From Paraflavitalea pollutisoli (lineage in GTDB: Bacteria; Bacteroidota; Bacteroidia; Chitinophagales; Chitinophagaceae): 64,000 bases of DNA. The translations under genes and the position numbers were made by a program. The stretch is from assembly GCF_029360705.1 (NCBI RefSeq), contig NZ_JARKMX010000008.1:1239949-1303948 (forward strand), read 5' to 3'. Position 1 is the first letter of the stretch, and each line of letters starts with the position of its first letter. Of this stretch, positions 6,975 to 19,776 are shown piece by piece. The notes beneath the pieces are model-generated. The model had not been told where the DNA came from, did not search any database, and saw only the letters and a program-made list of their open reading frames with translations.

Positions 6975-9900
6975 TTAGAATCCAACCGTCAGATTGAAGC
7001 CCATGCTGCGGGTGGAGGGGAACTGGCCCACTTCAAAACCGCGCACAATATCGGAACCAGACAAGGTGCCGAACTCGGGATCAAAAATTGGCCAGGGCGT
7101 CCAGATAAACAGGTCGCGACCATATATACCGATATTGGCAGTGATCAATCCCAGCTTCTTCAGGAATTTGGGACCGAAGGTGAAGTTCAGCGAAGCCTCC
7201 CGGAATTTTAGGAAGTCCGTGCTGAAGGTGCTGCCTTCTGCATTGTAGCTACCCATGCTGTATTGATAGTATTGATCGATATCGGTAGCCACCACATCGT
7301 TCTTTACATAATGACCTTCTTTGGTTTCCTTCACACCGTTGCCGATGATACCATTGTACCTGCCAGGCAGTGTAGATTTCAGTTTACCTTGTTCCACCAT
7401 TTTGTAATGGGTCAGCGAGTAGGCAACACCACCCACCTGGGCATCGAACAATACACTCAATGCAAAGCCTTTGTACCTGAAGTTGTTGCCAAGGCTGAAT
7501 TTGAATTTGGGGATCGTATTACCGAGGTAAATGATATTGGGCGTTATTTTGGGGAAACCAGTAGCGGTGTCGAAGATCACTTCACCCTGCGGGCTACGTT
7601 GATAGCCCAGACCGTATAGATCACCCAGGCTTCCGCCTACAGAAGCTACGATCTGTCCGCTGGCAATCTGTCCCGCACGCAACAATACAGCGCTATCGGG
7701 CATCGACATGATCTTATTCTGGTTGTAAGAGAAGGTTCCCATCAGCGACCATTCGAAACCGCCTTTCGTCCGGGCAGCAATGGGTTTGGCGTTGATACCA
7801 ATCTCCACACCATTGTTGCGCACCTTACCCGCATTGATGTATTGATATTGATAACCGGATGCGGCGTCGATCGTTCTAGTGAGGTGCTGATTGGTGGTGT
7901 TACCAAAATAAACAGCCAGGTCAAGGCTCAGCATGCTGTTGAAGAACTGCATTTCAGTACCCAACTCGAAGGTTGTTGTTGTCAGCGGCTCCAGGTTATA
8001 GTTCGGGATGATGGTGGGGCTGGTCTGTGCGCTGTCGGGATAAATGCCGGCATTGGCGTACGGATAGGTATACAACGTTTTGTAGGGTGTAGTACCACCG
8101 CTACCTACTGACGCCACGGAAGCGCGCAATTTCCAGTAATTGATGTCTTTGGGCAGCTTTACCACTTTCGACAGCAGGAAGCTGGTATTGATAGAAGGAT
8201 AGAAGAATCCGGATTGACCAGTCCTTTTGGGTGTAGCCAATACGCTGTTCCAGTCTTCCCGGCCGGTGATCTCAGCAAACAGGAAATCTCTGTAAGCCAG
8301 GTTCACGATACCGTAGATACTATTCAGGCGGTAACGGCTGGTGTCTGGTATGTAGGTCAGTCCGTACTCACTGTTCTCCAGGGTATAGATACCAGGCAGG
8401 TGAAGACCATCATTGCGTACATCGGATTTATCGTATTTATTCCAGAGCTGGCTACCACCGGCAGTCACGGTCATATTGATCTCGCTGTTGATCTGCTTGG
8501 TATAACGCGCCATCACGTCATAGCTCTTTTCCTGCGAATAGATATTCTGCTGACGGAAAGAACCTCTGGGCAACCGGGTACCCGCGTCGTAAGGACGCAG
8601 CTGCTCCCGTTTGTCGTTCATCCAGTCCAGGTTACCACGCACCAACAGGTTGAGGTCCTTGGTCACCTGGTAGTTCAGGGTTACGTTGCCGGTTACATTA
8701 TTCCTTCTCGTCTTGTTCAAAAACTCGTTGACGATGGCAAATGGGTTTTCCGGGAACGAGGAGAACGGATAACGGATCAATTTGTACAAGCTATCGTATG
8801 TGCTGCCAGGACCACCTGCCCAGTAATTCCGGAGCCAGTTGTAATCCGCACTGGGTTGCCAGAAAATATACCAGTACATCAGCGATTGGTTACCATAACC
8901 GGCTGCAGGCAGGTTATCACTCTGACGGAAACCATAGTTGATCTTTGTAGAGAGTTTGATTTTGTCAGTGATCTGCGAGTTGGTGCTCAACCCGATGTTT
9001 TGCCGATCGAATCCCGTATTGGGCACGATCCATTTGTTCTTTTCGGAACCTACGTTGATACGTACGCCTGTATTGCCGACCTTACCATCTACACTGAGGG
9101 TATTGCGCAGATCGGTACCCAGGTCCCAGAAATCGTTGATGTTATCGTAAGCTACCCAGGGCGTACGCTTTAAGCCTACTGCCTGGCGTACAGGATCGTA
9201 TTGAAAATACTCCTGACCGTCAAATTTAGGACCGTAAGCCGAGCTGGTGCCGCTGGTGCTGCCGCCATCTGCTGTAGTGCCATACGAATAATGGATCGCA
9301 CCGCCGGTACCCTGCCCGTATTCATATTGCAGATCGGGCACCCGGTTCACTTGCTCCAGGTTACCATTCATCGTATAGCGCACATTGAAGTGGCCTTTCT
9401 TCTTCTGGTTAGAAGACTTGGTGGTGATGATGATAGCACCGTTGGCCGCACGCTGTCCATAGAGGGCAGAGGCAGCAGGTCCTTTCAACACAGATACACT
9501 TTCAATGTCGGCCGGATTGATATCGTTCATCGAGCTACCGTAGTCGGCCGGCAGGTTATCGGAATTGGTAGCATACACCTGGTCGCTCCCGTTGGCAGAG
9601 CGCCTGCCGCTACCGTTGCTGATCACCACACCATCTACTACAATGAGCGCCTCGTTATCACCAGTAATATTGTTTTCACCACGCAGGATGATCTTGGTAG
9701 AGGCGGCAGGACCAGAACCGGAACGGATCAATTGCAAACCCGCCACTTTACCCGACAAGGCGTCGGTCCAGTTGGCACTGATCGCATTGGTCAGTTGGGT
9801 GCTATCGACCTTGGTCAGGGCATAACCCAGGGTCTTTTCCGACTTCTTGATGCCCAACGCCGTTACCACCACTTCATTCAGGGCTTCAGACTTACCCCGC

Positions 9901-10336: not shown

Positions 10337-11386
10337 TTACTTAGATTGCGTGATTATATAGATATCTTCCTTTTTAGTAACCGACAAACCGTTCATGTTT
10401 GCAATTACAGACAGCAATACGGATAAGGAATCTCCTTTGAGCACTTCACCGGAAAAGTATTTTCCTTTCAACTGCTCTTCATCATAGAATATGGTAGTAT
10501 GGTACCTGTCTGTCAGCGACTTCATCACAACAGGTAAAGGGGTATTATCAAACACCAGGGTGTTTTCATCCTGGTAAGGAACTTGATCGACTGCGGTAGA
10601 CGTTGGTCGGTTGGGTGCCACCTGGAATGGCTCCACGGTAACGGTACCGGCCGACACACTGTATTTCATTTCGTGGCCGGGCAGCAGCACCACATCTTTC
10701 TTCCAGCCTTTCAAGGACTTTACGAGCGATTTGATCAGCACTTTGCCGTGAAACAACCTGACCTGGCAGCTCGTCGCTTTTTCCGAGACTTTGAATGCGG
10801 TACCCAGCGCGGTGGTAGCAAACCATTTCGTGTGTACGGTAAATGGTCTTGCTTTGTCGGGTGCCACGTCAAAATCTGCCTCACCTTCCATATAGATGGT
10901 ACGCTTGTTCTCCCGGCCAAAAGGTTCCTGGTACCTGACCACCGCATGGGGAGCCAGTTTCACGAGGGTACCGTCTTCCAACTTGAAACGATAGGCTTTG
11001 GCGGCCGTATTGGTCTGCACCTTCCAGCTCGCGGTCGCTACTGGCTTTTTCTCCGTCCGTTCGGCCAGGGCTGCAGCGGGCGTCTTTGCGCTGGGCATAA
11101 AGAGCCAAACAGCGGCTGTGCCGATCAGCAGGGAGGCGGCAGCGGCGGCCCAACGAAATCGCACCACGCGCCGGTGCCGGGCGATCTGTACCTGGATCTC
11201 CTGCATCATGGCGGCTTTGTAACCAGCCGGTAACTCATTCGCCCCTTCAGCAGCACCCCAGGAAGATCGCAAATAAGTAGCTGCGAGGTCCGGGTACTGC
11301 TTCAGGTGCCGGGATACAGCTTCCGCTTCAGTGGGCGTACACTGGTTATCCAGAAACTTTTGAATGAGGGCGTTGGTAATCTTCAT
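10337..11386 (-). CDS. FecR-family anti-sigma factor
   Basis: 349 residues from the ATG at 11386 (MKITNAL); the longer frame runs back into the sigma gene and is rejected. A cytoplasmic N-terminal region binds sigma (LIQKFLDNQCTPTEAEAV). A single membrane helix lies near residues 100-120 (AAAAASLLIGTAAVWLF). A periplasmic FecR domain follows (FKLEDGTLVKLAPHAVVRY; GEADFDVAPDKARPFTVHT). The C-terminal DUF4974, an STN-like module, includes NTPLPVVMKSLTDRYHTTI. It holds the ECF sigma encoded just upstream until an outer-membrane signal arrives. The downstream SusC is the expected partner. Confidence 0.93.
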   Translation of the reverse strand: MKITNALIQKFLDNQCTPTEAEAVSRHLKQYPDLAATYLRSSWGAAEGANELPAGYKAAMMQEIQVQIARHRRVVRFRWAAAAASLLIGTAAVWLFMPSAKTPAAALAERTEKKPVATASWKVQTNTAAKAYRFKLEDGTLVKLAPHAVVRYQEPFGRENKRTIYMEGEADFDVAPDKARPFTVHTKWFATTALGTAFKVSEKATSCQVRLFHGKVLIKSLVKSLKGWKKDVVLLPGHEMKYSVSAGTVTVEPFQVAPNRPTSTAVDQVPYQDENTLVFDNTPLPVVMKSLTDRYHTTIFYDEEQLKGKYFSGEVLKGDSLSVLLSVIANMNGLSVTKKEDIYIITQSK

Positions 11387-11444
11387 GAGCTTGTAATAGA
11401 GAATACGAAGAGGAGGAGCATTTACCCCTGCTGTTAACATTAAG

Positions 11445-11999
11445 TTAATGCGACAACAACACAATACGCAGCAGGAAGGCGATCATAACGATCGAACGCA
11501 CGTGCTTTAAGGCCTTGGAGTAGTGGTCTTCGACCGTCTTGATGGAGACAGACAGTTTTTCGGCGATCTCTTTGTTGGAGTAACCTTTGTCGACCTTTAA
11601 TATAAATACATTCTTACGTACAGGGGGCAGGTCTTCTGATACGGCGTGGAGATAATCAGCCGTTTCGTAGTCCTGATGGGAGTGATAGACCAGCGTGGAG
11701 TGTTCATCGAGGTTGTCATCCAGCTCGCAGTGGTAACGACGTTCAACGGCTTGTTTGCGCAGGTAGTCGATGTAAATGGAGTTGGCGATAGTAAAAAGCT
11801 GGGCATCAACCGTATGGGCTTCGGTGAGGGTATGCCGGGACTGCCACAATTTGATAAAGACCTGTTGGGTCAGTTCTTTTGCCCATTCCTCTGTACGGAT
11901 CCTTTTCAGGAAATAATGAAACAGTTTGGCATGAAATACGTCATACACAGCCTGAAAGGCCACCTGATCTCCTTTCTTTATGTCCGTAATGAGGGTCAA
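11445..11999 (-). CDS. ECF RNA polymerase sigma factor
   Basis: 184 residues. Sigma region 2 spans about residues 10-85 (FHAKLFHYFLKRI, WAKELTQQVFIKLWQSR, LFTIANSIYIDYLRKQ). Region 4 covers about 118-170 (LPPVRKNVFILKVDKGYSNKEIA), with the helix-turn-helix VSIKTVEDHYSKAL. It matches the Bacteroidota ECF group paired with FecR anti-sigmas. It directs RNA polymerase to the downstream SusC/D/DUF5689 genes and probably itself when FecR releases it. The FecR start lies 58 bp downstream. The hydrophobic C-terminal tail (MIAFLLRIVLL) is usual for this group. Confidence 0.93.
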   Translation of the reverse strand: MTLITDIKKGDQVAFQAVYDVFHAKLFHYFLKRIRTEEWAKELTQQVFIKLWQSRHTLTEAHTVDAQLFTIANSIYIDYLRKQAVERRYHCELDDNLDEHSTLVYHSHQDYETADYLHAVSEDLPPVRKNVFILKVDKGYSNKEIAEKLSVSIKTVEDHYSKALKHVRSIVMIAFLLRIVLLSH

Positions 12000-12219: not shown

Positions 12220-14160
12220 TTACTTAATATACTCTTTCTTGATCCCCAACTTCTTCATTTTCGACTTCAGCGTAGAAGGGTTGATGTTCAATATTTCAGC
12301 AGCTGCACCTGGCCCCCAGATGCGGCCATGGCACTTGCGCAGCACCGAAAGGATATAATCCCTTTCATTCTCGACGATCGTTTTCAACGTGGCATCATCT
12401 GCCGTGGCGGCAGTATCCTTCTTCTCTACCGTGGGCAGCAGCACATCTTCGATCAACAGCCCCTTGCTTAGCAGCACACTCCGCTCTACCAGGTGCTCCA
12501 GTTCGCGGATATTGCCCGGCCAGTGATACGCCATCATCTTCAACAACACTTGCTCCGACACGCCATTCAACTTTTTCCCCGCCTTCTGGCCATAGTAATT
12601 CATAAAATGATACGCCAGCGCAGGAATATCCTCCTTGCGATCGCGCAAAGCCGGCAGCGTGATCGGGAACACATTCAAGCGGTAATACAGATCCAACCGG
12701 AAGCGGCCCTCCGCCACTTCCTTCTCCAGGTTCTTATTCGTCGCCGCAATGAAACGCACATCCACCCTGATCGTCTCCCTACCCCCTACTCTCTCTATTT
12801 CCCGCTCCTGCAATACCCGCAATAATTTCACCTGCAACTCCATCGGCATTTCACCGATCTCATCAAGGAAAATAGTTCCTTTATCTGCTCGTTCAAACTT
12901 GCCAATCCGTCTCTCCAGCGCACCGGTAAAAGCACCTTTCTCATGACCAAACAACTCCGATTCGATCAGCGCTGCCGGCAACGCCGCGCAGTTAATCTTC
13001 ACGAACGGTTTGCCTTTGCGGGCAGACAAGTCATGTATACAGTTAGCTATCTTTTCTTTTCCGGTCCCGCTTTCGCCCAATATCAACACGGAAGTATCCG
13101 TAGGAGCCGCTTGCTTGATGTGGTCAAACACATGCAGCAGCAAATGACTTTTACCCACAATGCCTTCAAAACCTTCCTCAGTTTTACTCTCTTCCACCAC
13201 CGATCCAACTTCAGTCGAAAAGCTATCTTTTTCAACGACCTCCCCCTCCAGCAGATCCTCAATGGTCTGGATCAGCGAGAACTGTATCCTTTCAAACAAC
13301 TCCAACTGCTCGGCACTGTAAGCATCCGGGCGACGACTATACAAACAAAAACTGAATGATCTCTTTTGCAGGATGCGCATCGGCATTTCCAGGTTGGACC
13401 GCAACTGAAAAGTATCGGCAAATAGCTGCCGCAGCGATGGCTGCCGGCACATCCGTTCAAAAACGACCTCATCATAATAAACAGCCTGGTTCACCGGCGG
13501 ACTGCCCGCCTGCAAAGCCACCAGCTCGTCGATCGATTTGCCCGTGATCGTGCTCAACGCCTGCGCATCGATCAGTTGGTATTCATCAAACCCAATTCTT
13601 AAAAAGCACATGCCTTTGAACCGTGGCAGCTTCAGGTGATCGAACCCCGCCACCAGGAAATCGAATGGAATACAAGACTGCAGCGCGGCCGTCACCGCCA
13701 GCAATTTCTGCGACCAGGTACCGGTACTGCTCACCACCTGTTTCAATTGCTTACGCAACTCGGTTTCCTGCTGGTATTTCGCCTCCACACTGTGTACACG
13801 CCGGTAACGGGCGATCTCCAGCGTTACCAACAGGTCTTTCTCCCGGTACGGCTTTACGATAAACCCATAGGGTTGCGTTTGCTTGGCAGCATTCAAGATC
13901 TCCTCGTTGGAGTTGGCAGACAGGTAAACAAAGGGAATATGATCGATCGCCAACTGCTTCGCCAGATCAATGCCGGTTTGTTTTCCCTTCAGCAAAATAT
14001 CAAGCAGTACAAAATCGGGTCGCCGTTCTTTGATCATGTCCAGGGCCTGCGGTACCGACCGGGCAACGCCCGTCACCCCATAGCCCGCCTGCTCCAGCAA
14101 CAAGCGAAGATCTTCTGCCTCTACAAACTGGTCCTCAACTATCAATATTTGCTCTTTCAT
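12220..14160 (-). CDS. sigma54-dependent NtrC-type response regulator
   Basis: 646 residues. REC domain 1-120 (E9/D10, phosphoacceptor D54 in VLLDILL, K near 104 in IVKPY). A linker/GAF-like region spans about 130-320. The AAA+ domain covers about 335-565, with Walker A GESGTGKE near residue 362, the sigma54-contact loop GAFTGA, Walker [10 protein letters not shown] and arginine-finger region [15 protein letters not shown]. The Fis-like HTH spans about 605-646 ([25 protein letters not shown]). It activates sigma54 promoters after phosphorylation by the TPR kinase encoded 14 bp upstream in the same operon. All catalytic motifs are intact. The target genes are not visible. Confidence 0.95.
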
Positions 14161-14174
14161 GGTCTGTTATTGAG

Positions 14175-16400
14175 TTACGCTTCAGCGACAAAGTCAAGCC
14201 GTATTTCGGTACCGTTATCATGGATCAACTGTAAGCTGGTATCGAGGTCACCACTCAGTCCCCGCATCAGTTTCATCCCCAACGTGCGGCTTTTTTCCGG
14301 ATCAAAACAAGGCGGCAAGCCCACCCCATTGTCTTTAATGGAAAGGATATAATGATCGGGCAACGTTTTCTCCAACACCACATCGATCCGGCCTTCGCGC
14401 TTATCCGGGAATGCGTACTTGATGGCATTCGTGATGGCTTCATTCAGGATCAGCCCCAGCGGAATACACTGCGATATGTTCAGCGCCACCGGTTCGATGC
14501 GCAGGTTGAACCGAATGGTGCGGCCCGTGTGAAAACTATCCTTCAGATAGTCAACAAGCTCATGGATATAAGCGGCCATATTGATGGCCGATAAATTATC
14601 CGACTGATACAATTTCTGGTGTACCAGCGACATGGCCTGTATGCGCTGCTGGCTTTCCGCCAGGGCCTCGATGGCCTCGTCCCCCTGCAGGTAGGCTGAC
14701 TGCGTACGCAACAAGCCCATCACAGTATGGAAATTGTTTTTCACCCGATGATGGATCTCCCGCACCAGCCATTCCTTTTCCTCCACCAGGTGTTGCAGGT
14801 CATCGTTCTTCCTTTCAATCACCAGCTGTTGCACCTGCAACTTGCTGTTCGTGCGTTGTTTTAAGCGCGCGTAATTGATGAGCAAGGCCACGATAACGAC
14901 CAGCAACACTCCGACACCCAACATCCAGCGCCGGGTATTTTTCTCTTTATTCAGTTCCGCCTGTTGAAACCGGGTTTCTTTTTCCAGTAAGCGGATATTC
15001 TGCACCTTTTTTTCCGTTTCATATTGAATGGTCAACTCTTCGATCTGCCGGCTCTTTTTTTCGTTGTAGAGGGAATCGCTCAACAGCTCGTATTGCTGCA
15101 GGTCTCTGATGGCTGCCGTATAGTTACCCAGCGCAGAATCGGCCGTAAACAACATATGTTGCAAGGCCCTTTGATCCGTTAACCGGGCACCCCGGTAAGC
15201 CAGCGCAGAATCCAGGTAACCATGGGCCTTCACATATTGACCGTGTTGCAGGTAGAACCTGCCAATGTCGAGGTTGCCACCGAACACATATTCTTCATTG
15301 AGCGGTGCTTGCCGGAAATAAGCAGCCATCGAATTATAGTAATTTTCTGCGGCAGCATACTGCTTCAATGCGTCATAACAGAGCGCATAGTTTTGCAGGG
15401 CAATAGCCTTTTCAAATATTGTTTTCGGTGTATGCGTCCTGACCAGGCTATCCATCATCGCCAGGGCCTCCCTGCTTCGCTGCAATTTCACCAACTGCCT
15501 GATCAATAGATTCGCTGTCTTGAACAATTCGGTCCGGTTTATCTTTCGATCTATTCTTTTTTGAAGGGTCTTTCGATACCAATAGCTACTTTCTTCGCAT
15601 CGCCCCAATTCATCGTACACCAGGGCCAGCTCTCCATAGTACAAATCAATCCGAATGGTATCATGGTGAAGCAAGGCATTGTCAACGCAGGTGGTGGCAT
15701 ACCGGAGTGATTTCTCATAAGCGCCACGGTAACGGTTCACCTCGGATAGATAATTATACATGGGTGAAACGCGGGTGCTTTTCATTTGCCGGTGTAAATC
15801 GATCGCATGCAGCAATTCCTTTTCTGTGGCATCGAAATGGTTACCTGCCCACAGATAATCTGATAGGGATACCCTGGCATCAGCTTCTCCTACCAGGTCA
15901 TGCGTCTGCACGAACAGGTGAATAGCCTTGTCGTAAAATCCCTGTATCTGGACAAAATAGGGAGGCCCCCAACTCATCTGCCGGGCAAGCCGCAACCAGG
16001 CATGTGCTTCCTTCGATGGTTCGCCCTGCGCATGATAAATACCAGCTACCCTGGAAAAAAGCTGTATACCCGTATCTGTTTCTAACTTCCCCAGGTGCGC
16101 ATCCCCTTCCAACTGCATACTCTCCAACCACCAATTTTTCAATTGCAGCCGCTCGCTCAGCTGGATCGCTTGCCGGAAGATTCCAATTGCCGAATCCATC
16201 AATAGGGCTCTATCATCGCTGTACCGTTCTCCAAAATAAGTTTTACCCAGTGCCATCAACAGCAGCACCCGGTTGCTATCCGGCTTGCTCACCTCCAGGC
16301 GCTGTTGTAACGCAGCGCGCGACAAGCCAGCCGGCAATTGCGCCGACAACGGCACTACCGTAGCCATCATCCATAAAACAGCCATGAGCATTTTAAACAT
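14175..16400 (-). CDS. TPR-containing sensor histidine kinase (HisKA_2)
   Basis: 741 residues from the ATG at 16400. A frame extension to 16457 would cross the promoter and a dyad and lacks a signal peptide, so it is rejected. Order: signal peptide ending PLSAQ, periplasmic TPR repeats (about 30-430), coiled coil (about 440-490), one membrane helix (WMLGVGVLLVVIVALLINY), HisKA_2 phosphoacceptor motif IHHRVKNNFHTVMGLL near residue 547, and HATPase_c (about 620-740; NEAITNAIKYAF, DNGVGLP). It pairs with the downstream NtrC-type regulator, 14 bp away. TPR sensors of this type in Bacteroidota have no known general ligand. Confidence 0.92.
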   Translation of the reverse strand: MFKMLMAVLWMMATVVPLSAQLPAGLSRAALQQRLEVSKPDSNRVLLLMALGKTYFGERYSDDRALLMDSAIGIFRQAIQLSERLQLKNWWLESMQLEGDAHLGKLETDTGIQLFSRVAGIYHAQGEPSKEAHAWLRLARQMSWGPPYFVQIQGFYDKAIHLFVQTHDLVGEADARVSLSDYLWAGNHFDATEKELLHAIDLHRQMKSTRVSPMYNYLSEVNRYRGAYEKSLRYATTCVDNALLHHDTIRIDLYYGELALVYDELGRCEESSYWYRKTLQKRIDRKINRTELFKTANLLIRQLVKLQRSREALAMMDSLVRTHTPKTIFEKAIALQNYALCYDALKQYAAAENYYNSMAAYFRQAPLNEEYVFGGNLDIGRFYLQHGQYVKAHGYLDSALAYRGARLTDQRALQHMLFTADSALGNYTAAIRDLQQYELLSDSLYNEKKSRQIEELTIQYETEKKVQNIRLLEKETRFQQAELNKEKNTRRWMLGVGVLLVVIVALLINYARLKQRTNSKLQVQQLVIERKNDDLQHLVEEKEWLVREIHHRVKNNFHTVMGLLRTQSAYLQGDEAIEALAESQQRIQAMSLVHQKLYQSDNLSAINMAAYIHELVDYLKDSFHTGRTIRFNLRIEPVALNISQCIPLGLILNEAITNAIKYAFPDKREGRIDVVLEKTLPDHYILSIKDNGVGLPPCFDPEKSRTLGMKLMRGLSGDLDTSLQLIHDNGTEIRLDFVAEA

Positions 16401-16417: not shown

Positions 16418-16425
16418 CAAAATTA
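16418..16425 (-). promoter_or_regulatory. -7 promoter element of the kinase/regulator operon
   Basis: TAATTTTG on the minus strand fits TAnnTTTG exactly and lies 17 bp upstream of the kinase ATG. The expected -33 position falls inside the proximal 18-bp dyad, so a protein bound there would overlap the promoter. Confidence 0.5.
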
Positions 16426-16435
16426 CACTTACTCA

Positions 16436-16453
16436 ACCGTGAAGTTTCACGGT
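16436..16453. promoter_or_regulatory. proximal operator-like dyad, perfect arms
   Basis: ACCGTGAA-GT-TTCACGGT is a perfect inverted repeat with 8-bp arms and a 2-bp centre. It sits in the divergent intergenic region just upstream of the kinase promoter's -7 element. It is shaped like a homodimer binding site. Confidence 0.6.
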
Positions 16454-16467
16454 CCATTTTTCGTCAA

Positions 16468-16485
16468 ACCGCGAAATATCACGGT
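16468..16485. promoter_or_regulatory. distal operator-like dyad
   Basis: ACCGCGAA-AT-ATCACGGT has the same 18-bp layout as the proximal dyad, with 6 of 8 arm pairs. It starts 32 bp away, about three helical turns, so both sites face the same side of the DNA. The consensus of both is ACCGYGAA-N2-WTCACGGT. Confidence 0.55.
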
Positions 16486-16554
16486 GGCCAATTTCCTTTC
16501 GCCGAATCAAACTATTGAACAGCACACACTTACAAATTGGGTACCGTAATTGGT

Positions 16555-17364
16555 ATGGATCCAGCTAACCTATTACTTATGGGAATTACACAACCACCAA
16601 CTGTCGTTTTCATTACCGGGGCCTTTGTACATCATAGCTGCTGGAACCCCTGGAAAACCTATTTCGAAAGTAAGGGATTTCTAACGATTGCTCCCCCCTG
16701 GCCACATAAATCGGCCAGTCCCGAAACGCTGCGCAACAGTCATCCCAACAAAGATATAGCAGCCAACCGGCTTCCCGCAATAACCGACCATTTTGATCGG
16801 ATAGTACGACAACTTGATCAGCCACCCGTCCTGATCGGCCATTCCATCGGCGGACTCATCGTACAGCTATTGCTTCAAAGAGGCCTGGGCAGGGCCGGTG
16901 TCGCCATTCATTCCGTGCCGCCACAAGGCATCTTTACTTTCAAGCTCTCCTTCCTCAAGGCGGGCTGGGGACCGCTGGGCTTCTTTACCCCTACCAGCCG
17001 GTCGTTCCTGATGTCATTCGAGCAATGGAAATATGCCTTTACCAACGGCATGGATTGCGATGCGCAGAAAGAAGCCTATTACCAGTTTGCCATTCCCGAA
17101 TCGAAACTCATCGTACGCGACACCATCACCCCTGCCGCCAGGGTCAACTTCGAAAATCCGCATGCCCCACTGCTGCTGACGGCCGGCAGCGACGACCATA
17201 CCATACCCGCTTCGCTGAACTACGCCAATTATAAGAAATACCAAAAGAGCAACTCCACCACCGACTATGCCCTGTTTACCGGCAGAAACCATTTCGTGCT
17301 GGGGCAGCCCACCTGGAAGGAAGATGCCGACTACATCCTCAACTGGCTCGGCAAACTGGCCTGA
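16555..17364 (+). CDS. alpha/beta hydrolase
   Basis: 269 residues from the ATG at 16555; a TTG six codons upstream and an ATG at 16579 are alternatives. It shows an alpha/beta-hydrolase fold with oxyanion-region VVFITGAFVHHSCW, nucleophile elbow GHSIGG (Ser about residue 97), an acid in AGSDDHTIP and the catalytic His in GRNHFVLGQ. There is no signal peptide, so it is cytoplasmic. The substrate is unknown; the closest feel is small esterase or lactonase-like hydrolases. It is first in a plus-strand run with a lipoprotein hydrolase (49 bp gap) and a porin, and divergent from the TPR kinase operon. Confidence 0.82.
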   Translation: MDPANLLLMGITQPPTVVFITGAFVHHSCWNPWKTYFESKGFLTIAPPWPHKSASPETLRNSHPNKDIAANRLPAITDHFDRIVRQLDQPPVLIGHSIGGLIVQLLLQRGLGRAGVAIHSVPPQGIFTFKLSFLKAGWGPLGFFTPTSRSFLMSFEQWKYAFTNGMDCDAQKEAYYQFAIPESKLIVRDTITPAARVNFENPHAPLLLTAGSDDHTIPASLNYANYKKYQKSNSTTDYALFTGRNHFVLGQPTWKEDADYILNWLGKLA

Positions 17365-17413: not shown

Positions 17414-18391
17414 ATGAAACACCTGATGTCAGTATTCATTATTACCAGCCTTTTGCTGGCAGCCTGTAATGGCGAACCCAAGAACACGGAAACACCAGCT
17501 ACTACGTCGGCCGATAGTAGCAACACGACGGTAAGCACGCCACCAGCCGCTCCACCGTCCAATTTTAAACATGGCTCAGCCAATGTCAATGGCGTCGATA
17601 TTCACTATGTATCTGGCGGCACCGGCGAGCCCCTGGTATTGCTGCATGGCTTTGGACAGAACTGGTACATGTGGAACCGCCTGCTGCCCGAGTTATCCAA
17701 ACACTTTACGGTGATTGCGCCAGACCTCCCAGGCATCGGCGAATCGGGAAAACTGGCCGGTAACTATGACAAGAAAACGATGGCCACCTATATCCACGGA
17801 CTGGTGAAGCATCTGGGCCATGAGCACATCAACCTCGTGGGTCATGACATCGGTCTCATGGTAGCCTATGCCTATGCTGCCCAGTTCTCCGCAGAAGTTA
17901 AAAAGCTGGCCCTGCTGGATGCCCTGTTACCCGGCGTAGAACCGGTGTGGAGCCAGGTGAAAGCATCGGCCTGGTGGTTTGGCTTCTTTGGTTTCCCTGC
18001 TTCCGGTGAACTGGTTGCCGGACAAGAGCGCCTCTTCCTCACTAATTTCTGGCCAGTGGTAGGTCATGTCAAAGATCCCTTCACCACCGAAGAGATCAAT
18101 GAATTCATACGCGCTTACGCTGTAAAAGGAGGAACCACCGGCGCTTTCCATTGGTTCGGCGCTTTTGACCAGGACGCCGTGGATAATAAAGAGTTCATGA
18201 AAACAAAACTCAAAATGCCCTTGCTGGCAATGGGTGGCGAGTACTTTGGTGCTGCCTTCCTGGTAGATCATTGTAAGCTGGTAGCAGAAAACGTAACCGG
18301 TTCCAACATCAAAGGTTCCGGCCACTGGATCGTACAGGAGAATACGACCCAGGTGCAAAAAGATCTGCTGGATTTCTTCCTGGCCAAATGA
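17414..18391 (+). CDS. alpha/beta hydrolase lipoprotein, epoxide-hydrolase/dehalogenase-like
   Basis: 325 residues from the ATG at 17414; the frame upstream overlaps the preceding gene and is not used. Signal peptide with lipobox LLAAC (lipidated Cys 18) and a Thr/Ser/Pro-rich linker to about residue 50. The hydrolase core has oxyanion motif HGFG (residues 78-81), nucleophile elbow GHDIG with Asp 145 instead of Ser, and catalytic His in GSGHW near residue 304. An Asp nucleophile is typical of epoxide hydrolases and haloalkane/haloacetate dehalogenases. It is anchored in the cell envelope. The next gene begins 11 bp after its stop. Confidence 0.87.
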   Translation: MKHLMSVFIITSLLLAACNGEPKNTETPATTSADSSNTTVSTPPAAPPSNFKHGSANVNGVDIHYVSGGTGEPLVLLHGFGQNWYMWNRLLPELSKHFTVIAPDLPGIGESGKLAGNYDKKTMATYIHGLVKHLGHEHINLVGHDIGLMVAYAYAAQFSAEVKKLALLDALLPGVEPVWSQVKASAWWFGFFGFPASGELVAGQERLFLTNFWPVVGHVKDPFTTEEINEFIRAYAVKGGTTGAFHWFGAFDQDAVDNKEFMKTKLKMPLLAMGGEYFGAAFLVDHCKLVAENVTGSNIKGSGHWIVQENTTQVQKDLLDFFLAK

Positions 18392-18402
18392 TCCCCCCAT
18401 CG

Positions 18403-19776
18403 ATGAAACAACTACTCGTTCTATTGCTGAGCCTGGCCTGTTATTACTGTCATGCTCAACACCAGGCAGCCTTCAAACAACTCCGGTACGATGAGGACTA
18501 CTCCCTGCTGCGACAAGACAGCAGCAGGGATTGGTACAAAGCCCTTAAATACACACCGCTATCGCAGCAAGGGCATACGTATCTCAGCCTGGGTGGCGAC
18601 ATCAGGTACCAATACCAGTGGTTTAAAAACGAAAACTGGGGCGCCGCGCCGAAAGACAATGACGGCTTCGTGCTGACCCGCTACCTGGCGCATGCCGATT
18701 TCCATGCCGGTAAACACTTCAGGACCTTTGTGCAACTGCAAAGCAGTTTTGCCAATGGGAAGGTGGCCCCGCCCTCGCCGGTCGATGAAAATCAGCTCGA
18801 CCTGCACCAGGCGTTTGTCGATCTCGCCTTTGCAGGGAAACAGGCATCTTCGATAACGCTCAGGATTGGTCGCCAGGAATTGTTGTACGGATCGCAACGC
18901 CTGGTCGCGGTGCGCGACGGGCCCAATAACCGGCAGGCCTTCGATGCCGCCCGCTTGTTGTACGCCCGCCGTACCTGGCAGGTAGATGTGTTCTATTCCC
19001 GTTTTGTACAGTCGAAGCCAAAGATCTTCGATGATGGGGTGACCAACAATACACGTTTTTGGGGTGCGTACCTCGTCAAGCGTAAAATCCCTTTCTTACG
19101 CAACGTCGATCTGTATTATTTCGGACTGCAGAGAAAGAGTGCAAAGTTCGATGATGGTACCGGTGAAGAGTTGAGGCATTCCGTGGGGACGAGGATCTGG
19201 GATGCCAAAAAGTTTTGGCGCTACGATATCGAAGGCGTGTATCAGTTTGGCGACTTCGCTGGCAAGCAAATAACTGCCTGGACTTTCTCGGTCAATACGA
19301 GCTATAAGTTTGCCAACACCGCACTCAAGCCGGAGTTTGGTGTAAAAACAGAGGTGATCAGTGGAGATGGCCGGTATGGTGACAACAAGCTGCAAACCTT
19401 CAACCCGCTGTTTCCACGCGGAGGTTATTTTGGGTTGGTATCCCTGATCGGCCCGGCCAACCTGTTCGACATACACCCCTCAGTCACCCTGGACCTGTGG
19501 CGCGGACTGTACTTCAACATGGACTATGATATCTTCTGGCGTTACAGCCGCCACGACGGCATCTACGGTCCCAGCACGGCGCTGATCTATTCGGGTAAGG
19601 AGAGCACGCAAAAGTCGATTGGCCGGCAGTACTCGACCCACCTGGAGTATATACCCAACCGGCATTTCTATTTCCGGTGCGAGTTTACGTGGTTCAAGGC
19701 CAGTGATTTTTTGCAGGACGTAGGTCCGGGTAAAAACATCCTGTTCACGTCCACCACAGCCCAATTGAAATTTTAG
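18403..19776 (+). CDS. alginate-export-family outer-membrane porin
   Basis: 457 residues from ATG 18403 (MKQLLVLLLS); an ATG at 18388 overlaps the previous stop but adds MIPPS before the signal peptide and is less likely. Signal peptide ends near CHAQ. The rest is beta-barrel-like with the alginate_exp (PF13372) features: YLSLGGDIRYQYQWF near the start, RIGRQELLYGSQRLV, a PxxxGxYFG-like loop (FPRGGYFGLVS) and the terminal strand TTAQLKF. In Bacteroidota this family is a general outer-membrane channel, so alginate is not implied. It likely works with the two upstream hydrolases in uptake or release of a small substrate. Confidence 0.85.
   Translation: MKQLLVLLLSLACYYCHAQHQAAFKQLRYDEDYSLLRQDSSRDWYKALKYTPLSQQGHTYLSLGGDIRYQYQWFKNENWGAAPKDNDGFVLTRYLAHADFHAGKHFRTFVQLQSSFANGKVAPPSPVDENQLDLHQAFVDLAFAGKQASSITLRIGRQELLYGSQRLVAVRDGPNNRQAFDAARLLYARRTWQVDVFYSRFVQSKPKIFDDGVTNNTRFWGAYLVKRKIPFLRNVDLYYFGLQRKSAKFDDGTGEELRHSVGTRIWDAKKFWRYDIEGVYQFGDFAGKQITAWTFSVNTSYKFANTALKPEFGVKTEVISGDGRYGDNKLQTFNPLFPRGGYFGLVSLIGPANLFDIHPSVTLDLWRGLYFNMDYDIFWRYSRHDGIYGPSTALIYSGKESTQKSIGRQYSTHLEYIPNRHFYFRCEFTWFKASDFLQDVGPGKNILFTSTTAQLKF

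Follow-up and report, generated by a model that had tools for sequence, protein, structure and literature searches.

In Paraflavitalea pollutisoli, two 18-bp dyads sit in the gap between a sensor histidine kinase gene, with the gene of an NtrC-type response regulator behind it, and a divergent alpha/beta hydrolase gene, raising the question of which protein would bind them and which of the two operons they would serve. We analyzed a stretch of 64,000 nucleotides that carries this locus (the window; Table 1). We put at roughly 0.77 the probability that the dyads serve the adjacent NtrC-type regulator as a pair of upstream activating sites, from which it would, judging from the sequence, activate the hydrolase operon via sigma54 and probably repress the kinase operon. 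The arrangement given in the preliminary description of positions 16436-16485, with two 18-bp dyads 32 bp apart and the first of them perfect, was confirmed.

Table 1. Features of the kinase-hydrolase locus, in window coordinates.
Feature	Position	Strand	Basis or remark
NtrC-type response regulator: REC, middle region, sigma54-activating AAA+, Fis-type HTH	12220-14160	-	Pfam; GAFTGA read in translation
Regulator codons 627-635, NPSTLKSKM, start of recognition helix	12256-12282	-	Residue numbers counted from the 646-aa ORF
Sensor histidine kinase, HisKA_2/HATPase_c, probable TPR repeats	14175-16400	-	Pfam, scanned from 16457
Candidate kinase-operon -7 box, TAATTTTG; distance to dyad 1, 10 bp	16418-16425	-	8/9 orthologous loci
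Dyad 1, kinase-proximal, ACCGTGAAGTTTCACGGT	16436-16453	.	Perfect dyad; predicted regulator dimer site; pair kept in 9/9 orthologous loci
Dyad 2, hydrolase-proximal, ACCGCGAAATATCACGGT	16468-16485	.	Imperfect dyad; predicted site; pair kept in 9/9 orthologous loci
Degenerate sigma54-like -24/-12 element of the hydrolase operon, GGGTACCGTAATTGGT; GG at 16540-16541, -12 G at 16552	16539-16554	+	Ortholog position; joint matrix test
Alpha/beta hydrolase 1, opening the proposed target operon	16579-17364	+	Pfam Abhydrolase_6, scanned from 16537; start ATG
Alpha/beta hydrolase 2	17414-18391	+	Pfam Abhydrolase_1, scanned from 17267; ATG 17414 read in sequence
Porin-like outer-membrane protein, Alginate_exp	18388-19776	+	Pfam PF13372

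The kinase ORF extends mechanically to 16457, beside the dyad, and ATG 16400 is most likely the kinase start; TPR_12 scored 23.0 bits in this protein, under the Pfam cut-off of 30.1. The AAA+ region of the regulator belongs to Sigma54_activat (Pfam, E = 4e-74), with the GAFTGA motif present in the translation, and its DNA-binding domain matches HTH_8 at 26.1 bits (Pfam cut-off 22). Against the curated NtrC model TIGR01818 the regulator reached 332.6 bits, below the cut-off of 558.6 for NtrC proper, and the 25 NCBIfam models listed of the 77 matched all fell below their curated cut-offs, so that none could be assigned; the AAA+ and Fis-HTH parts align with the curated models of the FhlA/NorR/ZraR/AtoC group, likewise below cut-offs. 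A solved-structure search with the HTH end of the regulator returned no match. The genome carries two RpoN genes (G000:C1:70838-71311 and G000:C15:2988722-2989195; L106, L107) and many sigma54 activators (24 matches, in which some genes count as two pieces), and the second RpoN gene lies about 0.5 kb from another activator match. Separately from the dyads, an ECF sigma factor gene is found downstream of the regulator (window 11445-11999), followed by what looks like a gene for a FecR-type anti-sigma factor (10337-11464).

From start to start the dyads are 32 bp apart, or about three helical turns. With up to three mismatches, ACCGYGAANNWTCACGGT matches the two dyads only, on both strands (4 rows against 1.5 expected); since 10 of 100 shuffles reach at least 4, this window count is weak taken alone. 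In the 8.76-Mb genome, ACCGYGAN4TCRCGGT is matched exactly by the two dyads alone; no site differs from it at one position and 54 differ at two, and its backward control gave 134 matches at up to two mismatches. We therefore regard the dyads as a local pair and not as part of a genome-wide regulon. A strict scan for pairs of like dyads returned a single pair in the 64-kb window, and a looser one added four weaker pairs (score 21-22 versus 26). The preliminary description had named a search for further matching sites in the genome as a check on its reading; none was found, which does not refute the reading because regulons of one local operon are usual for this class of activator (PMC6615313).

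Conservation in relatives was also proposed there as a check: the dyad pair is kept in all nine orthologous loci examined, although some arms differ by a single base (L094, L096, L175, L176), and much of the flanking gap sequence changes among these loci while the dyads stay. Two such dyads, 30-32 bp apart, accompany the kinase orthologs of three congeneric genomes (66-69% identity) and of one genome from another genus (39%). A loose pattern of two dyads 5-35 bp apart was found in 7 of 394 genomes of the family, at one place each and with 0 control matches, and all seven places are the divergent TPR-kinase/hydrolase gap; one of the genomes (G004) lacks the first hydrolase gene and has the second at this position. 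Two further genomes with an orthologous regulator (G433 and G380) keep the pair as well, although one dyad of G380 is worn, which is why this genome, itself among the 394, was missed by the loose pattern.

The preliminary description saw no sigma54 -24/-12 element nearby, and this was not supported: a conserved sigma54-like one lies 54 bp beyond dyad 2, though it is degenerate in the window. When the loci are aligned on the hydrolase strand, a conserved block appears 53-54 bp past dyad 2, reading GGTACCGTAATTGGTA here, GGCATYGTAATTGGCA or GGTAGGGTAATTGGTA in others and GGCATTTTGTTTGGCA in G011, with ten bases from GG to the -12 G, as in -24/-12 promoters. GGYAN2GTAATTGGYA is found at this hydrolase-side place in 8/9 orthologous loci, and G011 has a variant. 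The simpler pattern GGYAYN5TTG gave 111 matches in 32 loci, five of which are preceded by a strong dyad pair (score 24-28, next best 16), whereas 0 of 2220 shuffles reached a score of 21; these five, which share one offset, are the paralog L103 and four own-type loci.

We further examined the element with promoter matrices. The first was built from 12 paralog loci, with elements chosen by eye between the dyads and the target gene (consensus TGGCATACAAATAGAC). Of nine held-out paralog loci, seven gave a best match that 0/200 shuffles equalled, 99-111 bp past the dyads (six TGGCAT, one TGGCAC); of the other two, L191 was reached by 2/200 shuffles, and at L100 the element was not recovered (12/200). 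At L103, scanned beside these nine, the element was not recovered by the matrix (22/200 shuffles as good). The same matrix did not recover the element in the window, where the best match lay elsewhere and was equalled by 137/300 shuffles, and among seven orthologs scanned singly it placed its best match at the element in three (G003, G327, G355; 7-14/300 shuffles as good). A joint scan of eight own-type loci used a matrix of 19 paralog promoters (the 12 and the seven recovered ones) and found one shared place with a mean score of 3.28, versus at most -1.33 in shuffles (0/500), which applied the same permutation to all loci and thus retained their conservation; L175 was left out here, as the pair expression did not fit it. 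In place, the element of the window scores -2.5, and its -12 reads TTGG, not TTGC. A genome-wide promoter census is uninformative, given that TTGGCAYNNNNNTTTGNA has 1 site versus 2 control matches and a relaxed version of the local element 252 matches versus 133.

If the element is the promoter, hydrolase transcription would start near 16564, with the dyad centers at about -88 (dyad 2) and -120 (dyad 1). From a conserved sigma54-like element ahead of the hydrolase gene it follows that the regulator should activate there and not only repress, in line with the earlier suggestion that the dyads might also serve the divergent hydrolase gene. We rejected a repressor-only reading of the dyads. The earlier proposal that the regulator acts here as a repressor probably stands for the kinase operon and is not supported as its sole role.

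On the kinase side, a TAATTTTR box (TAATTTTA/G; TAATTTCA in G003) lies 8-10 bp from the proximal dyad in 8/9 orthologous loci, which agrees with the earlier placement of this dyad over the expected -33 region and favors self-regulation as one of its roles. A regulator dimer at the proximal dyad would lie over the -33 region of this promoter, so that autorepression of the kinase operon is likely. In G011 (L094, pair 9549-9596) the dyad pair is kept and the -7 box is absent from its usual place, and therefore autorepression may not be general.

A similar design recurs at paralogous regulators, whose loci we collected from the same genus and others. A pair scan of 49 loci (832 kb) returned 34 dyad pairs, 28 in non-coding gaps and 6 in ORFs; 23 fit the design (9 of own type) and 11 do not, and one shuffle gave 2. 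The dyad centers at paralogs are spaced 30-33 bp, and most pairs are found past the end of the regulator gene, ahead of a target gene that has a sigma54-like promoter, the target genes themselves differing from regulator to regulator. In a table of 50 activators, 30 have an [NHKA]P-S/T-TL helix, 25 of these with a pair nearby by the scan made for the table; the L175 pair from the 49-locus scan brings this to 26/30. At the remaining loci, L153 has a pair by eye (centers 31 bp apart), L177 and L178 one full dyad each, and L147 none. Eight of the 25 table pairs score 19-20 only, like candidates taken as chance, and five of these eight reach 24 in the 49-locus scan. Candidates of score 19-20 also occur at 4 of the other 20 activators (L102, L157, L161, L162), where we took them as chance, and as second candidates at L094, L096 and L179. 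No dyad pair was found near regulators with a PPTTLA/KS helix (L098, L145, L146, L274).

From the dyad pair to the -24 element, the distance is 53-54 bp at own-type loci and, among the 19 paralog loci where an element was accepted, 99-112 bp at 16 (89, 124 and 127 bp at the others), so that the two classes differ by about five helical turns. By eye, L102:7921-7955 has dyads 21 bp apart (CATGATATTTCATG / CACGAAATATCATG) followed by GGCAC-N5-TTTG, and the gap 3829-4066 of L104 has a single dyad (TCGCGAAATATCGCGA) followed by the same motif; both were excluded from the counts. A wider scan of genome contigs matched general activator peptides and yielded 80 loci, of which only L191 and L192 were judged close relatives. 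In Flavobacterium araucananum (L192:6956-11350), a like regulator, a hydrolase and a porin-like gene stand together, and no clear dyad pair was seen at this locus; the grouping suggests that the regulator-hydrolase-porin unit predates the family.

Among paralogs, regulator residues 629, 632 and 633 vary with the dyad type. Regulators with N/H627, S629 and K/R632 have arms of the ACCGYGA type in 9/9 loci. For the 20 loci with K627, S629 goes with CCCCGA (4/4), T629 together with S633 goes with at least one exact CTCCGA arm (13/13), often beside CTCCAA or CTCCAT and once CCCCGG, and A633 goes with CTCCAA and never with a CTCCGA arm (3/3); dyad types were assigned by eye, and 4/20 sites (L153, L177, L178, L191) were found by seeking the expected arms. 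The helix APSTLES of L103 is accompanied by dyads CTCCCG..CGGGAG, and NPSTLES of L189 by TCTGA. The rule also holds at two loci viewed after it had been drawn: L273, found by scan, where one of four arms is exactly CTCCGA, and L191 (Bacteroidetes bacterium 43-93), judged by eye, where a full dyad is accompanied by a half site at a distance of 30 bp. On a regulator tree made with the last 55 residues (the HTH) removed, CCCCGA and CTCCAA need two changes each, also when well-supported branches alone are used, and the helix residues change equally often. Sign tests of helix against site had 1-2 independent pairs, with which significance is unattainable, and we therefore regard the co-change as suggestive and mechanistically pointed but short of proof. 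Regulator residues 627, 628 and 632 presumably correspond to Asn84, Arg85 and Arg89 of Fis. These Fis residues touch DNA (PMC4784862).

We consider it somewhat probable that helix residues 629 (S/T), 632 (K/R/E) and 633 (S/A) set the arm (CCCCGA, CTCCGA, CTCCAA or ACCGYGA) and thereby keep apart the copies of a multiplied TPR-kinase/NtrC-type family, in which the dyads of a pair are 30-33 bp apart and a sigma54 promoter of lineage-specific form, TGGCAYN3AATNG, follows them at a nearly constant interval (about 54 bp, and in most paralogs about 99-112 bp). With such an arm code for each copy, each would control just its own neighboring enzyme operon.

An AAA+ activator with GAFTGA and a Fis-HTH, two RpoN genes, and paired sites at about -88/-120 of a -24/-12-like promoter lead us to read the dyads as activating sites. 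Beside the computed sites, their conservation, their near-fixed distance to the sigma54-like element, the paralog design and the helix-site co-change, we set the following scheme. The TPR-kinase would phosphorylate the response regulator, and each dyad would take one regulator dimer, both on one face of the helix, with oligomerization to follow. The AAA+ domain would then open the sigma54 promoter at about 16539-16554 and turn on the hydrolase-hydrolase-porin operon, while regulator at the proximal dyad would cover the -33 region of the TAATTTTG kinase promoter and so limit its own operon.

The dyads might instead be operators of the same regulator for the kinase operon alone, in pure autorepression or auto-activation and with no sigma54 promoter at the hydrolase gene. 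In favor of such a role, the expected -33 region that goes with the TAATTTTR box falls within the proximal dyad in 8/9 loci, and the sigma54-like element of the window is weak by itself; we nevertheless consider it unlikely. Against it stand the conserved sigma54-like element, which keeps a nearly constant distance on the hydrolase side, the paralog pairs that mostly stand between a regulator stop and a target gene with a sigma54-like promoter, and the pair of G011, which lies about 170 bp from the kinase start. Still less probable is that another regulator, encoded elsewhere, binds the dyads and controls the hydrolase, the two-component pair being a mere neighbor. The dyads do look like ordinary operators, and alpha/beta hydrolases often have one-component repressors, but across paralogs the dyad type goes with the recognition helix of the regulator beside it, with repeated co-changes, and the pairs occur beside these regulators despite their differing target genes. 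This covariation likewise favors the binder predicted in the preliminary description, the adjacent Fis-HTH regulator.

That the dyads are chance palindromes, or an RNA hairpin or terminator, we hold to be scarcely credible. The mismatch scan of the window is by itself compatible with chance (10/100 shuffles), yet the dyads are unique in the genome, paired, and kept in 9/9 orthologous loci amid a changing gap. A terminator might be read into the plus strand 3' of dyad 1, where three bases are followed by five T; this T run recurs in G002 and is absent in G004, G003, G327 and G355, so that with the dyads kept throughout, the hairpin or terminator reading was rejected.

Read as activating sites of the adjacent regulator, the dyads have a familiar counterpart. 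At the glnA enhancer of enteric bacteria, NtrC has two dyads about three helical turns apart, at -108/-140, upstream of a sigma54 promoter and near a promoter of another type. The present locus resembles it in its paired dyads about three turns apart before a predicted sigma54-like promoter, with a candidate promoter of another type close by, and differs in the dyad sequence, the Bacteroidota-type kinase, the REC-middle-AAA-Fis regulator, the -12 without TTGC and the hydrolase operon as target. The regulator shares its HTH type with the nucleoid protein Fis, which reads mainly DNA shape (PMC4784862), whereas here the arm bases co-vary with helix residues.

Local regulons of such activators are described for Desulfovibrio vulgaris and the Clostridiales, with their own upstream activating sequence (UAS) motifs near the activator genes, often multiple sites and commonly one target operon (PMC4641369, PMC6615313); 170 of 263 activators control one operon (PMC6615313). 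Local activators with UAS of their own being usual in these accounts, the paired-site system is of a known kind. For D. vulgaris, motif likeness was also compared with the tree of DNA-binding domains (PMC4641369). Several of these UAS motifs are of TGT-N9-12-ACA types, which include 15 of 39 groups in Clostridiales (PMC6615313). Compared with these, the arms here are ACCGYGA, CTCCGA, CCCCGA or CTCCAA, with an A+T-rich center and a spacing of 30-33 bp, and by eye ACCGYGA-N4-TCRCGGT falls outside the TGT-N10-12-ACA class (NifA/FhlA-like). A literature search of titles and abstract openings found no description of this regulator family, of TGGCAYN3AATNG promoters or of the helix-site co-change.

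Together, these results provide a concrete, predicted assignment of regulator, sites and promoter in a lineage for which we found little on sigma54 regulons, and they replace a repressor-only reading of the locus by one as an enhancer. They also point to a regulator family suited to predicting how sigma54 activators choose their DNA sites, and to probing such predictions by single-residue exchanges.
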